Source: Treponema sp. (GTDB lineage Bacteria > Spirochaetota > Spirochaetia > Treponematales > Treponemataceae). From it: DNA of 45,162 nucleotides. The first letter of the stretch is position 1; every line of letters starts with the position of its first letter. The stretch spans positions 1-45,162 of the forward strand of contig JAAYQG010000052.1 in NCBI GenBank assembly GCA_012519415.1, read 5' to 3'. Below, piece after piece: positions 20,436-35,957 of the stretch. Made by a program: the position numbers and the translations under genes. A model generated the notes under the pieces. It searched no databases and was not told the DNA's origin. It saw nothing but the letters and a program-made list of their open reading frames with translations.

Positions 20436-21224
20436 ATGATTGCTTCAGTATTTGAGCAAAAAACAGAAGAAGAATTGTGGATAGAATTTAAAAAAACTAA
20501 TTCTCCGGCTTTACGCGATGCGTTCATTCGTCAATATATGCCTTTGGTTAAATATGTTGCAGGAAAAGTATCAGTAGGAATGCCTGGCAGTGTTGAATTT
20601 GATGATTTAGTTGGGTTTGGTCAATTCGGTCTTCTTGATGCAATAAATAAATTTGATCCTGAAAAAAATGTTAAATTTAAAACTTATGCCGTTACAAGAA
20701 TTCGAGGCGCAATTTTTGATGAACTGCGTTCTATTGACTGGGTTCCTCGTTCTGTTAGGCAGAAATCTCGTGAAATTGAAGATGCCATAAGTAGATTGGA
20801 ATCTAAACTTGGCAGAACAGCCTCTGATGCAGAAATTGCTGATTCAATGGGAATTAGTGAAGAAGATTACAATCAGATTGTTTTAAAAGTATCAGGAACG
20901 AGCATTTTATCTTTAAATGATATTTGGTATTCCGGCGATGATTCAGATCATGTATCAATCGGTGATTGTATTGAATCGCCTTCAAGTTTGAATCCTGATG
21001 TTATTGTTGAGCGAGAAGAGGTTAGGCGTATTATAATTGAATCAATAAATGATTTACCTGAAAAAGAAAAAATGGTTCTCGTTTTGTATTACTACGAAGA
21101 TTTGACTTTTAAAGAAATTGGACAAGTTCTTAATGTTAGTGAATCACGTATTTCGCAGCTTCATACAAAAGCAAATTTAAGACTTCGTGCAAAATTAACA
21201 AACATACGTAAAGGAATCTTATAA
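20436..21224 (+). CDS. fliA: FliA, flagellar sigma factor (sigma-28 / WhiG family)
   Basis: RNA polymerase sigma factor of 262 residues for late flagellar and motility genes. Region 2 carries FDDLVGFGQFGLLDAINKFDP and KTYAVTRIRGAIFDELRS (about 48-95). Region 3 follows, with SRLESKLGRTASDAEIA. Region 4 ends with LTFKEIGQVLNVSESRISQLHTKA, a helix-turn-helix for the -35. It is the last gene of the fla operon. The window contains sigma-28-like promoters before fliK (2844), after flgE (6301) and before a secreted ankyrin gene (42111), so FliA may activate its own operon. No anti-sigma FlgM is visible here. Confidence 0.95.
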   Translation: MIASVFEQKTEEELWIEFKKTNSPALRDAFIRQYMPLVKYVAGKVSVGMPGSVEFDDLVGFGQFGLLDAINKFDPEKNVKFKTYAVTRIRGAIFDELRSIDWVPRSVRQKSREIEDAISRLESKLGRTASDAEIADSMGISEEDYNQIVLKVSGTSILSLNDIWYSGDDSDHVSIGDCIESPSSLNPDVIVEREEVRRIIIESINDLPEKEKMVLVLYYYEDLTFKEIGQVLNVSESRISQLHTKANLRLRAKLTNIRKGIL

Positions 21225-21262: not shown

Positions 21263-21302
21263 TTTATTTTTGTTATTTCGGTTATTGCCGGTTTTATAGG
21301 GG

Positions 21303-21459
21303 TGTTTAACGAAACCTTTGCCGAAGATGGCGTCAAAGGTTTCGTTTCCAAGTTTGCGACGCAAACTTTATTATATATTGCACTTTCTCATTCCATTACG
21401 AAAGTGCGGTAAAAACTCAATTCGGAAGTTGAAACTTCCTCATCGAGTTTTTATAGGGG
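21303..21459 (+). repeat. Tandem four-hairpin element, unit 1
   Basis: A 157-base unit bounded by TTTTATAGGGG on both sides (21292-21302 and 21449-21459). Hairpin 1 is a perfect 13-bp stem (21308-21320 with 21334-21346) and a 13-base loop. Hairpin 2 is AAGTTTGC/GCAAACTT (21350-21357, 21361-21368). Hairpin 3 is GCACTTTC/GAAAGTGC (21380-21387, 21400-21407) with a 12-base loop. Hairpin 4 has outer arms AAAAACTC/GAGTTTTT (21411-21418, 21445-21452) and an inner stem GGAAGT/ACTTCC closing a TGAA loop. An open frame crosses it (21318-21500), but it looks like a by-product of the repeat. Confidence 0.8.
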
Positions 21460-21616
21460 ATGCAATCAAAACTTTGCCGGAAATGGCGTCAAAGGTTTGA
21501 TTTGCAAAGTTTGCAATGCAAACTTTATTATTAACGTTGCTTCCTCACTGTGTTGCGGAAGCACATAAAAAGTTACTTTCGAAAACTGAAGTTTTCTCAG
21601 TAACTTTTTATAGGGG
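21460..21616 (+). repeat. Tandem four-hairpin element, unit 2
   Basis: Second 157-base unit with the same four hairpins in the same order. Hairpin 1: 21464-21476 with 21490-21502 (12 of 13 pairs). Hairpin 2: AAAGTTTGC/GCAAACTTT (21506-21514, 21518-21526). Hairpin 3: TGCTTCC/GGAAGCA (21538-21544, 21557-21563), again with a 12-base loop. Hairpin 4: outer AAAAAGTTACT/AGTAACTTTTT (21567-21577, 21599-21609), inner GAAAAC/GTTTTC with a TGAA loop. The terminal ATAGGGG acts as the ribosome site of the gene at 21623. The stems of hairpins 3 and 4 differ from unit 1 in sequence but are kept in structure. Confidence 0.8.
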
Positions 21617-21622
21617 AAGCTT

Positions 21623-23593
21623 ATGGTTACACTTGAAGATATACGCAATGAACTCCAAAAAAAATTACAGATTGATCAGCTTTTGCGTTCTGTTGAAGTT
21701 CATGCTGATACTTTAGATGAAGCTTTAGCAGATGCAGCTGTTCAGTTACAGACGCGTGTCGCATATCTTGAATATGAAATAATTGAACGCGGCTCTGATG
21801 GGTTTCTGGGAATTGCGAAAAAACCATGGGTTATTAATGCTTACGAAACTGCTGCTATAGTTATGGCAAGAGAAAAGAAGAAGAAAAAACTTGCTGACGC
21901 TGCTGCTGCCGAAGATGGAAGTGTTGACGTTATTCCGGATAAAGATGCTGAATTCTTTGTGCATTATTTTGACGGTTTTATTGTGCTCAAAATTATTCCG
22001 CCGGTTGGCAATGGTGCAAATGTAACTGTGAATCAAGTTGTTTCATCTATAAATACCGGCGAATCTTACGAATTTAAAGAAGCTGATATAAAAAAAGTTG
22101 TTGATAGAGGTGATACCGAAGGGCTATACGAACGGATTGGAACATTTATCCAAAATCCTGTTAATGATGCGATCATTTCTGTTGATGTTTCTATGGACGA
22201 GATGACATGCACTATTATTGCCACAGCTCCAATGCGCGAGGGTGGTGAAATTCAAGCTGAATATATTGAACGCCAGCTTCAACGACGAAATGTTACAGTC
22301 GGCATTGACCGTGAAAAGATTGATGCTTTTGTAGATAAGCCTGTGTATGGAATTCCTTATGTGGTTGCAGAAGGAATAAAACCTGTTGACGGACGAGATG
22401 CATATATTCAGTATAATTTTGAAACAGACCGTTCAAAAATCAGAATTAAAGAATCTGCTTCAGGTCAAGTAGACTTTAAGGAATTGAACCTTATTCAAAA
22501 TGTTGTCGAAGGTCAACCTCTTGCACAAAAAATGCTTGCGGAGCGTGGTAAAGCGGGCAAGACATTATTCGGAAAATATCTCGAAGCTAAAAATGGAAAA
22601 GACATACCGATTCCGCTTGGAAAAAATGTGCGTTTAGATACAGATGGGCGTACAGTTCTTGCAACTTGCAATGGACAAGTTTTGCTTTCGGGAAGTAAAA
22701 TTAACGTTGAGCCTGTTATGGAAGTTGATTCTGTTAGTATTAAAACAGGTAATATTACTTTCCTTGGTACTGTAATTGTAAAAGGTAATGTTGATGATGG
22801 CTTTAATGTTAAAGCTTCCGGAAATATCGAAGTTTATGGAACTGTTGGAAATTCTCAAATTGAAGCAGACGGTGATATTATTGTTTCTTTGGGAATCATG
22901 GGGCGCGATGAGGGAACTATAAAATGCGGACGTTCTCTTTGGGCTAAATTTATCCAGAATGCAAATGTTTTTGCCGACGAAAATGTAATTGTTGCAGATG
23001 GAATTATTAATTCTAACGTTACATGTAATAAACGAATTATTTTGCAAGGAAAACGAGCTGCTATTATTGGAGGACATCTCTTTGCAACAGAAGAAATAAA
23101 CGCTAAGACAATCGGTTCTAGCGGTGCCGGAAGCGAAACTGTACTTGAAGTCGGTTTTGATCCTAAAAAAAAGCAGCGTCTTGATGAATTGCAAGCAAGG
23201 CAGAGTGTAATTGTCCATGAACTTGAAGAAATTTCTTTGAATCTTTCTACATTAGAAAACCAAAAGCAAATGAGAAAATCTCTGCCGCAAGATAAAGAAG
23301 AAGCTCTTGCAACTTTGTATAAACAAAAAAGCGATTTTATGGACGAATCTGAAGTTATCGCCACAGAAATACAAGAGATTCAGAATTATTTGCGCGAACT
23401 GAAAGTTATTGGTAAGATTTCAGCATCCGGCACAGTTCATCCTGGTGTAAAATTGTTCATTAGAGATATAAAAGAAGATATTCGTATAGAAATCAGAAGT
23501 GTTACGTTCTATCTTGAAAACGGATTTATTCGACAGGGTAAATATGAACCTGTAAGTGATGATATAAAACGAACACCTGATGGATACAATTAA
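21623..23593 (+). CDS. FapA/DUF342-family protein with Jag-N-like N-terminus
   Basis: Protein of 656 residues with no membrane helix. The N-terminal part (about 15-75) looks like a Jag-N domain, with the hallmark EYEIIERGSDGFLGIAKKPW. The middle (about 110-510) is the FapA/DUF342 region, which ends in a glycine-rich beta-helix of repeated short strands (KGNVDDGFNVKASGNIEVYG and following). A coiled coil at about 515-590 and a last strand-rich piece complete it. The family function is poorly defined; related proteins are linked to polymer or surface processes and, in some bacteria, to motility. The start uses GGGG at 21613-21616, the last bases of the hairpin element. It follows fliA but probably has its own promoter at 21234. 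Confidence 0.7.
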   Translation: MVTLEDIRNELQKKLQIDQLLRSVEVHADTLDEALADAAVQLQTRVAYLEYEIIERGSDGFLGIAKKPWVINAYETAAIVMAREKKKKKLADAAAAEDGSVDVIPDKDAEFFVHYFDGFIVLKIIPPVGNGANVTVNQVVSSINTGESYEFKEADIKKVVDRGDTEGLYERIGTFIQNPVNDAIISVDVSMDEMTCTIIATAPMREGGEIQAEYIERQLQRRNVTVGIDREKIDAFVDKPVYGIPYVVAEGIKPVDGRDAYIQYNFETDRSKIRIKESASGQVDFKELNLIQNVVEGQPLAQKMLAERGKAGKTLFGKYLEAKNGKDIPIPLGKNVRLDTDGRTVLATCNGQVLLSGSKINVEPVMEVDSVSIKTGNITFLGTVIVKGNVDDGFNVKASGNIEVYGTVGNSQIEADGDIIVSLGIMGRDEGTIKCGRSLWAKFIQNANVFADENVIVADGIINSNVTCNKRIILQGKRAAIIGGHLFATEEINAKTIGSSGAGSETVLEVGFDPKKKQRLDELQARQSVIVHELEEISLNLSTLENQKQMRKSLPQDKEEALATLYKQKSDFMDESEVIATEIQEIQNYLRELKVIGKISASGTVHPGVKLFIRDIKEDIRIEIRSVTFYLENGFIRQGKYEPVSDDIKRTPDGYN

Positions 23594-35559: not shown

Positions 35560-35613
35560 GGCGTTTTGCTTTGGCTTCTATCTAAAATTTTGGGATTAAT
35601 CTAGCGAAACGCC
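35560..35613 (+). repeat. Dispersed intergenic repeat, copy 3a
   Basis: The unit starts GGCGTTTTGC (35560-35569) and ends GCGAAACGCC (35604-35613), which pair over ten bases with one G-T. Between them lies CTAAAATTTTGGGATTAATC, the family core also seen at 2609-2820 and 1-130. It begins one base after the galM stop. Confidence 0.7.
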
Positions 35614-35620
35614 GAAGTTT

Positions 35621-35705
35621 GCAGTTTAATCAGACGTCCTGTCTGATTAAACTGCCGAGTTTTGCTTCACAAAACTCACGCTTGTGCACTGCCTCCATGC
35701 AGTGC
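35621..35705 (+). other. Array of three perfect hairpins
   Basis: Hairpin A: GCAGTTTAATCAGAC (35621-35635) with GTCTGATTAAACTGC (35641-35655), loop GTCCT. Hairpin B: GAGTTTTG (35657-35664) with CAAAACTC (35670-35677), loop CTTCA. Hairpin C: GCACTGC (35686-35692) with GCAGTGC (35699-35705), loop CTCCAT. All are perfectly paired. They follow one another with almost no spacer, between two repeat units. Confidence 0.7.
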
Positions 35706-35737
35706 GGATTTGTACAGGTGCGGCATAATTTTGCGGT

Positions 35738-35815
35738 GCGAAAACTTGAGGCTTGGGCATTTGCGTTTTGCGTTTGGGTTGGAGCTAAAATTTTGGGATT
35801 AATCTAGCAAAACGC
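35738..35815 (+). repeat. Dispersed intergenic repeat, copy 3b
   Basis: It opens GCGAAAACTTGAGGCTTGGG, as in copy 1 (60-75), then GCGTTTTGC (35763-35771), which pairs perfectly with GCAAAACGC (35807-35815). The core CTAAAATTTTGGGATTAATC is identical to copy 3a. Confidence 0.7.
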
Positions 35816-35820
35816 TGTAG

Positions 35821-35863
35821 ATTTGCAGTTTAATCAGACGTTCTGTCTGATTAAACTGCAAAT
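35821..35863 (+). other. Perfect 19-bp hairpin, second copy of hairpin A
   Basis: The arm 35821-35839 pairs perfectly with 35845-35863 around GTTCT. The inner 15 pairs are the same as in the hairpin at 35621-35655, and it again follows directly on a repeat unit. So repeat plus hairpin form a composite module of about 100 bp that is present twice. It could also terminate galM transcription. Confidence 0.7.
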
Positions 35864-35957
35864 TCTGAGCTGGTTTCCTTCCTTGAAAAAATTATTTTAT
35901 GTTTTGTTTTCATTTTCATATTTCAAATGTGCTGTTTTTCGGGTATTATGTATTATA

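Follow-up and report, generated by a model that had tools for sequence, protein, structure and literature searches.

Tandem TD-1 units before fapA in a gut treponeme: a non-coding mobile element at Shine-Dalgarno sites, probably moved in trans by an IS110 transposase

A contig of Treponema sp. (JAAYQG010000052.1; the whole stretch analyzed, of 45,162 nucleotides, is referred to here as the window) carries, directly before a fapA gene, two similar hairpin-rich units in tandem. The question raised by this locus is whether these units form a structured leader controlling fapA or belong to an element that landed there. The original prediction favored the leader and gave a dispersed mobile hairpin element as the main alternative. 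Its description of the units was accurate: there are two head-to-tail units of about 157 bp (positions 21303–21459 and 21460–21616, period 156–157 bp), each with four hairpins and the loop sizes proposed (13, 3 and 12 nt and a TGAA loop), the loops of hairpin 1 have 11 of 13 bases in common, and hairpin 1 of unit 2 contains an A-G mismatch. The predicted fold of the pair is 7.3 standard deviations lower than that of shuffled sequences. Control of fapA by a tandem structured leader was not supported, as the genes downstream of such units are unrelated and close relatives have no insert at fapA. The mobile alternative proved to be right, dozens of unrelated genes being preceded by a unit. We consider it likely that the units are a non-coding mobile element, an extended form of the Rfam family TD-1, which inserts at Shine-Dalgarno sequences (SDs) and is probably moved in trans by an IS110 transposase with a putative SD-targeting bridge RNA. 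This reading draws on sequence comparisons, which establish the position at SDs, the empty sites, the flanking repeats, the presence or absence of inserts by species, and the target, right end and co-occurrence shared with IS110.

TD-1 units at Shine-Dalgarno sites

In covariance model searches, both units matched TD-1 (RF03155) end to end, unit 1 with 65.7 bits, above the gathering score of 64.5, and unit 2 with 52.7 bits (E 8e-8), below this score. TD-1, reportedly first described by Weinberg and colleagues in 2017, is of the type Cis-reg in Rfam and belongs to clan CL00124, together with TD-2 (RF03162). On the minus strand, the part of unit 1 that spans hairpins 1–3 gave a weak TD-2 match (39 bits, short of the gathering score of 48.7). 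The TD-1 model spans hairpins 2–4 only, with hairpin 1 outside it except for its 3' arm. The fapA units resemble TD-1 in hairpins 2–4 and in the TTTTTATAGGA end, but they differ in having a further 5' hairpin, also conserved, in forming tandem arrays with duplicate copies of the SD and in behaving as a mobile element. The papers searched contained nothing on TD-1 together with Treponema.

The genome searched is that of a gut treponeme (2.45 Mb, 189 contigs). It yielded 86 TD-1 matches, 13 of which pass the gathering score. A model of hairpins 1 and 2 built in this analysis (R1) gave 104 matches (E 1e-3), of which roughly a dozen were weak or opposite-strand echoes, leaving about 90 matches to hairpins 1 and 2. 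The TD-1 and R1 matches combined correspond to about 74 arrays, single or tandem, in which the number of units ranges from one to three or higher. Contig ends fall within TD-1 arrays in many cases (C46, C58, C145, C178, C159 and C20), suggesting that the arrays probably break the assembly and that the copy number is a lower bound. In the congeners, Rfam TD-1 gave no match and R1 identified zero to two related units (one or two in G004, G006 and G007), as against 86 TD-1 matches here, indicating a large expansion in this genome. Among the 294 genomes of the order, 53 were positive for TD-1, every one in the family of Treponema sp.; within this family, 88 of 245 genomes were positive. The genus with the highest TD-1 scores (up to 136 bits), represented by complete genomes, was taken as that of T. 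denticola. Two arrays (L237 in G035 and L238 in G038) contain four near-identical units, spaced at intervals of exactly 165 and 174 bp, respectively, 5' of a gene start, and they look recently duplicated.

For 47 arrays, there was a complete right end and enough sequence beyond it, and 41 of these are directly followed by an SD, a start codon and a same-strand open reading frame of at least 75 codons, a combination found at 1.2% of positions drawn at random from these loci. Partial last units likewise stop at an SD. The downstream genes, named from their sequences, include fapA, leuD, pyk, cysS, argD, argC, purM, pfk, fba, metE and trpB, among others; they are functionally mixed, with no single pathway or signal. 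The random scatter that the original prediction had envisaged as a counterargument was therefore not observed: it is the SD itself that is targeted for insertion, which places the copies at gene starts.

Seven congeners were compared at several unit-bearing genes. The fapA site lacks an insert in three of them, in which it reads CCGGTTTTATAGGAGAAACTTATG; in the genome studied here, it consists of CCGGTTTTATAGGGG, the two units and TTTTTATAGGGGAAGCTTATG. The TTTTATAGGGG sequence is present three times at fapA, 5' of, between and 3' of the units, the SD thus being duplicated at each insertion. More generally, the two flanks of an array have a mean common stretch of 6.9 bases versus 5.3 in shuffled pairs (33 arrays, p 5e-5), with part of this signal coming from arrays in which the left flank is an older unit. 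Orthologous SD sites in the apparent T. denticola genus vary with the species, being filled, empty or reduced: the L223 and L233 sites are empty in G037 (AAAAAGGAGATTAATATG at L223) and filled in G021 and G052. G046 carries a different insert at L223, L224 and L229, with one identical right end at all three sites: an IS110-type transposase gene, present as its 3' end, is followed by ...GTTTGTTGACTTTTTATGGGAG and by the native start codon. Insertion of TD-1 at SDs is well shown by these comparisons of related sequences.

An IS110 clade with the same target and right end

The genome studied here has one IS110-type transposase (G000:C70), with PF01548 and PF02371; a TD-1 unit bearing the same SD repeats follows it immediately downstream. 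The right end of this element, GTTGACTTTTTATGGGAG, runs into that unit, and the unit in turn stops at the same SD, ahead of the next gene. Relatives with 52–100% identity, referred to here as the IS110 clade, were found in 19 of the 245 family genomes. Wherever the right end could be read (about 14 loci, in one case at a contig edge), it was ...TTGACTTTTTATGGGAG, with a start codon within a few bases in nearly all of them, and the readable left ends are mostly at a native AGGAG. The right end GTTGACTTTTTATGGGAG is exact in IS110 and in some TD-1 copies, and one hairpin 4 allele of this genome (AAAAAGTCAAC...TTCGTTGACTTTTTATRGGAG) corresponds to the IS110 right end plus one extra inner hairpin. 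The ends of a unit in the congener G004, GGAGTTAGGATAAAAAG and CTTGACTTTTTATGGAGG, are close to those of IS110 at both sides, and the TD-1 left end resembles that of IS110 in some alleles only. No other element sharing both ends with TD-1 was seen. TD-1 was present in 14 of the 19 genomes with a close member of the IS110 clade versus 74 of the 226 without one (Fisher p 7e-4), and did not co-occur with distant IS110s (3/17). In G046:C1 (L296–L308), complete and broken IS110 copies lie at SDs, and several of them adjoin TD-1 units. In the papers searched, no IS110 clade aimed at SDs was found; non-autonomous IS110 elements with a bridge RNA and the IS110 elements of T. denticola were likewise not covered.

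The leader RNA of IS110 elements pairs with target and donor via two loops (PMC11208160, PMC11187229). With the bridge RNA supplied in trans, a 22-bp donor is enough (PMC11208160), and the interior of the insertion sequence can be replaced by cargo with movement kept (PMC11187229). In the IS110 clade, the leader has a first loop ...NAGGAGAATGAAGAGC, with NGGGAG in two elements, and, further on, GACTGAATGGGAG; the putative bridge RNA, seen in the autonomous copies only, would have ...AGGAGAATGAAGAGC as loop 1 and GACTGAATGGGAG as loop 2. The loop 1 bases 5' of GGAG fit the left flank of their own element more closely than the left flanks of other elements (p 0.001, 11 elements), and loop 2 resembles the right end ATGGGAG. 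The leader RNA may therefore be a bridge RNA with SD-like sequence in its two loops. The predicted fold of the leader at G000:C70 (L309) is modestly stable (z −2.3). Relatives of this leader mostly have GAATGGGAGA(A/T)TGGAAC in the second loop. The TD-1 units, at 157 bp, carry no DEDD/Transposase_20 open reading frame and no guide loop was seen in them. The unit ends are GGAG... on the left and ...TTTTTAT[AGT]GGAG on the right, and no terminal inverted repeats were found between the ends of the fapA units.

We infer that the IS110 transposase moves TD-1. TD-1 inserts at SDs, pointing the same way as the target gene; an SD would be left on both sides, so that the gene would keep a working ribosome site. 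With the SD regenerated, the same site could be hit again, giving tandem arrays such as the fapA pair. The most likely carrier is an IS110 clade that inserts at SDs, has its right end in common with TD-1 and displays SD-like sequence in the putative bridge RNA loops. TD-1, lacking a transposase of its own, would be a passenger moved in trans by the IS110 transposase and leader RNA, with a circle as the intermediate and an SD-like core at its junction. The hairpins may help the host leader to tolerate the insert. It is also conceivable, but improbable, that the unit is more than a passenger and that its RNA, transcribed along with each host mRNA leader, has a role in RNA-guided IS110 movement, whether by binding the transposase, by partnering the guide or as a leader that undergoes processing; if so, this would be a two-part mobile system reading and rewriting ribosome-binding sites genome-wide.

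Several observations weigh against such a passenger and carrier. The two commonest TD-1 left ends in this genome (AACGAAAAC and CAATCAAAAC) are only loosely like the IS110 left end GYRTGATAAAA, and the flank matches are short or imperfect in many of its arrays. One IS110 copy (L320) has a further hairpin unit, rather than a start codon, right after its right end. The co-occurrence statistic ignores phylogeny; five genomes with the IS110 clade have no Rfam TD-1 at the cut-off used, although one of them, G154, has an R1-related unit, and four of the five T. denticola-genus genomes examined contain TD-1 with no PF02371 match, implying that the carrier has been lost or is different there. The proposed bridge RNA is assigned from loop sequence and position, the flank fit (p 0.001) coming from 11 elements only, and in the IS110 at G000:C70 the second, donor-like loop is interrupted by about 24 nt (TAACTGCAGCGAAGCTTCAAGCAG), so this leader may be impaired.

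Stem pairing and alternative explanations

The original prediction proposed a search with a covariance model for further copies with covarying stems, and such copies were found among the TD-1 matches. Pairing was kept in 96.7% of the 2814 stem cells in 64 full units from this genome, versus 86.3% in shuffles, and 29 of 44 pairs had two-sided changes, versus 17.0 in shuffles (0 of 500 shuffles reached 29; slid controls gave 4–9), with covariation in all four hairpins. The compensatory changes noted between the two fapA units are thus real as two-sided pair changes, but they are mostly whole-hairpin alleles recurring elsewhere, not independent point compensations. The variants of each hairpin form a few discrete alleles, which recur among copies in many combinations (hairpin 4 alleles, called only roughly, showed no significant association with those of hairpin 3, p 0.15, or hairpin 1, p 0.56), and a few hairpin 1 copies have two arms from different alleles that do not match each other. 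Selection on the plus-strand RNA would be expected to leave G-U pairs more numerous than A-C mismatches. The stem departures included 21 G-U versus 26 A-C in this genome and 6 versus 7 in the apparent T. denticola genus, with 15 versus 0 in a small tRNA control, suggesting that plus-strand RNA pairing alone is not what is kept. The paired changes look like inherited hairpin alleles, exchanged among copies, or changes kept by a strand-symmetric DNA process, rather than the result of selection on the leader RNA. At several loci (L258, L259, L254 and L275) and in three species of the apparent T. denticola genus, an insert of about 62 nt (TTCGCTATCCGCTTTAGCGGATACGATGAAAAATTTCCTT...GAGCCGAAAGGCTCTGA) is nested in the apical loop of hairpin 4, and TD-1 hairpins seem to grow through loop insertion.

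These results bear on a tandem cis-regulatory leader, a riboswitch or attenuator sensing a signal for fapA or for many genes, which we consider very unlikely. Such a leader would fit the strong covariation, the conserved unpaired loops, the Rfam type and the constant position of the units in the 5' leader, in gene orientation. However, this location can be attributed to the insertion target, the downstream genes are unrelated, close relatives have no insert at fapA or at many of the other sites, and G-U pairs are no commoner than A-C mismatches. Hairpin 4, previously described as terminator-like, is a poor intrinsic terminator because its U run is inside the stem; the SD is located just outside this hairpin, and the stem is not followed by a U tail. 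For fapA itself, a riboswitch or attenuator was rejected in view of the unrelated downstream genes and the empty orthologous sites. An upstream peptide starting from the left SD, considered by eye, was dropped because its start codon was not conserved across units.

Movement between SDs by another mechanism, either a different transposase making staggered cuts and a true target-site duplication or retrotransposition of the leader RNA, is also unlikely, although somewhat less so. The direct repeats of 8–13 bp, some exceeding the need of a two-base core, and the 5'-truncated first units of several arrays are in line with it. Nevertheless, the truncations affect both outer array edges, 3' included, and so look like erosion rather than the 5' truncation of reverse transcription; retrotransposition with 5' truncation was rejected on account of the 3' partial units. 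The apparent duplications in these families arise from end assignment according to the authors of the seekRNA study (PMC11187229), and the IS110 clade has the same target and right end as TD-1. Host processes alone (tandem duplication, gene conversion between copies and template switching that corrects palindromes), without ongoing transposition, would agree with the mosaic hairpin alleles, the few mismatched arms of hairpin 1 and the wobble symmetry. They probably account for the stem alleles, but not for the spread, as they cannot explain the new occupation of unrelated SDs with exact empty sites in relatives, and as a complete explanation they are scarcely credible.

The fapA locus and comparison with known systems

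The features of the locus are listed in Table 1. As originally predicted, the terminal AGGGG is the ribosome site of a FapA-like gene: an ATG is present at 21623, and FapA was identified by Pfam. The 3' arm of hairpin 4 of unit 1 is the right end of the element. In some congeners, the sigma factor gene abuts fapA directly. Elsewhere in the window, between two plus-strand genes (35560–35870), another hairpin repeat is found in two imperfect copies about 205 bp apart, with the core GTTTAATCAGACGTYCTGTCTGATTAAAC, and a weak TD-2 match (36.2 bits) lies within it on the minus strand (35619–35704).

Table 1. Coordinates in the window of the two units, the SD repeats and the adjacent genes
Feature	Position	Strand	Remarks
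Sigma factor gene, flagellar type, upstream	20436..21224	+	Sigma-70 regions 2, 3 and 4
Left direct repeat TTTTATAGGGG	21292..21302	+	Target SD copy 5' of unit 1; single TTTTATAGGAG in congeners
Unit 1, hairpins 1–4	21303..21448	+	TD-1 match 21339–21458
Unit 1, hairpin 1	21308..21346	+	Arms 21308–21320 / 21334–21346; conserved 13-nt loop
Unit 1, hairpin 2	21350..21368	+	
Unit 1, hairpin 3	21380..21407	+	GCACTTTC/GAAAGTGC, 12-nt loop
Unit 1, hairpin 4	21410..21453	+	Outer A/T stem, inner GGAAGT/ACTTCC, TGAA loop
Middle direct repeat TTTTATAGGGG	21449..21459	+	SD copy separating the units
Unit 2, hairpins 1–4	21460..21605	+	TD-1 match 21496–21615
Unit 2, hairpin 1	21464..21502	+	Single A-G mismatch
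Unit 2, hairpin 2	21507..21525	+	
Unit 2, hairpin 3	21538..21563	+	GCTTCC/GGAAGC allele
Unit 2, hairpin 4	21566..21610	+	GAAAAC/GTTTTC allele
Right direct repeat TTTTATAGGGG	21606..21616	+	Includes AGGGG, the working SD of fapA
fapA, gene with the target SD	21623..23593	+	656 aa; FapA, FapA_N and Jag_N domains

An Rfam cis-regulatory RNA with no known role may thus be recast as a mobile element with a likely carrier. The analysis points to RNA-guided transposons targeting the SD, a sequence present 5' of most genes and regenerated on insertion, which would explain the tolerance of about 74 arrays. If this is true, natural SD-directed bridge RNAs would be available for study, and covariation in repeated leaders would not necessarily indicate regulation.

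Among known systems, hairpin repeats with paired variation, often in tandem like the TD-1 units, include repetitive extragenic palindromes and bacterial interspersed mosaic elements (REP/BIME) and integron attC sites. However, TD-1 lies at gene starts rather than at gene ends or in cassette arrays, is flanked by SD repeats, and gave no Rfam match to such families. The attC reading was dropped, the copies being dispersed 5' of ordinary genes. TD-1 is closer to miniature inverted-repeat transposable elements and other non-autonomous passengers, being short, non-coding and of high copy number, with ends partly shared with a rarer autonomous element, on which it would depend in trans; it differs from them in lacking terminal inverted repeats, in its four internal hairpins, and in landing on an SD and regenerating it. 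The specific target, the fixed orientation (41/47 arrays) and the lack of terminal inverted repeats are features that TD-1 and the IS110-clade copies have in common with the IS110 family. With respect to the IS110 elements with a bridge RNA or seekRNA (IS621 and ISEc21), the likeness lies in the SD target and right end shared by TD-1 and the IS110 clade described here and in the guide-like loop that the autonomous copies carry in their leader, and the difference in that TD-1 has neither a transposase nor a visible guide loop.
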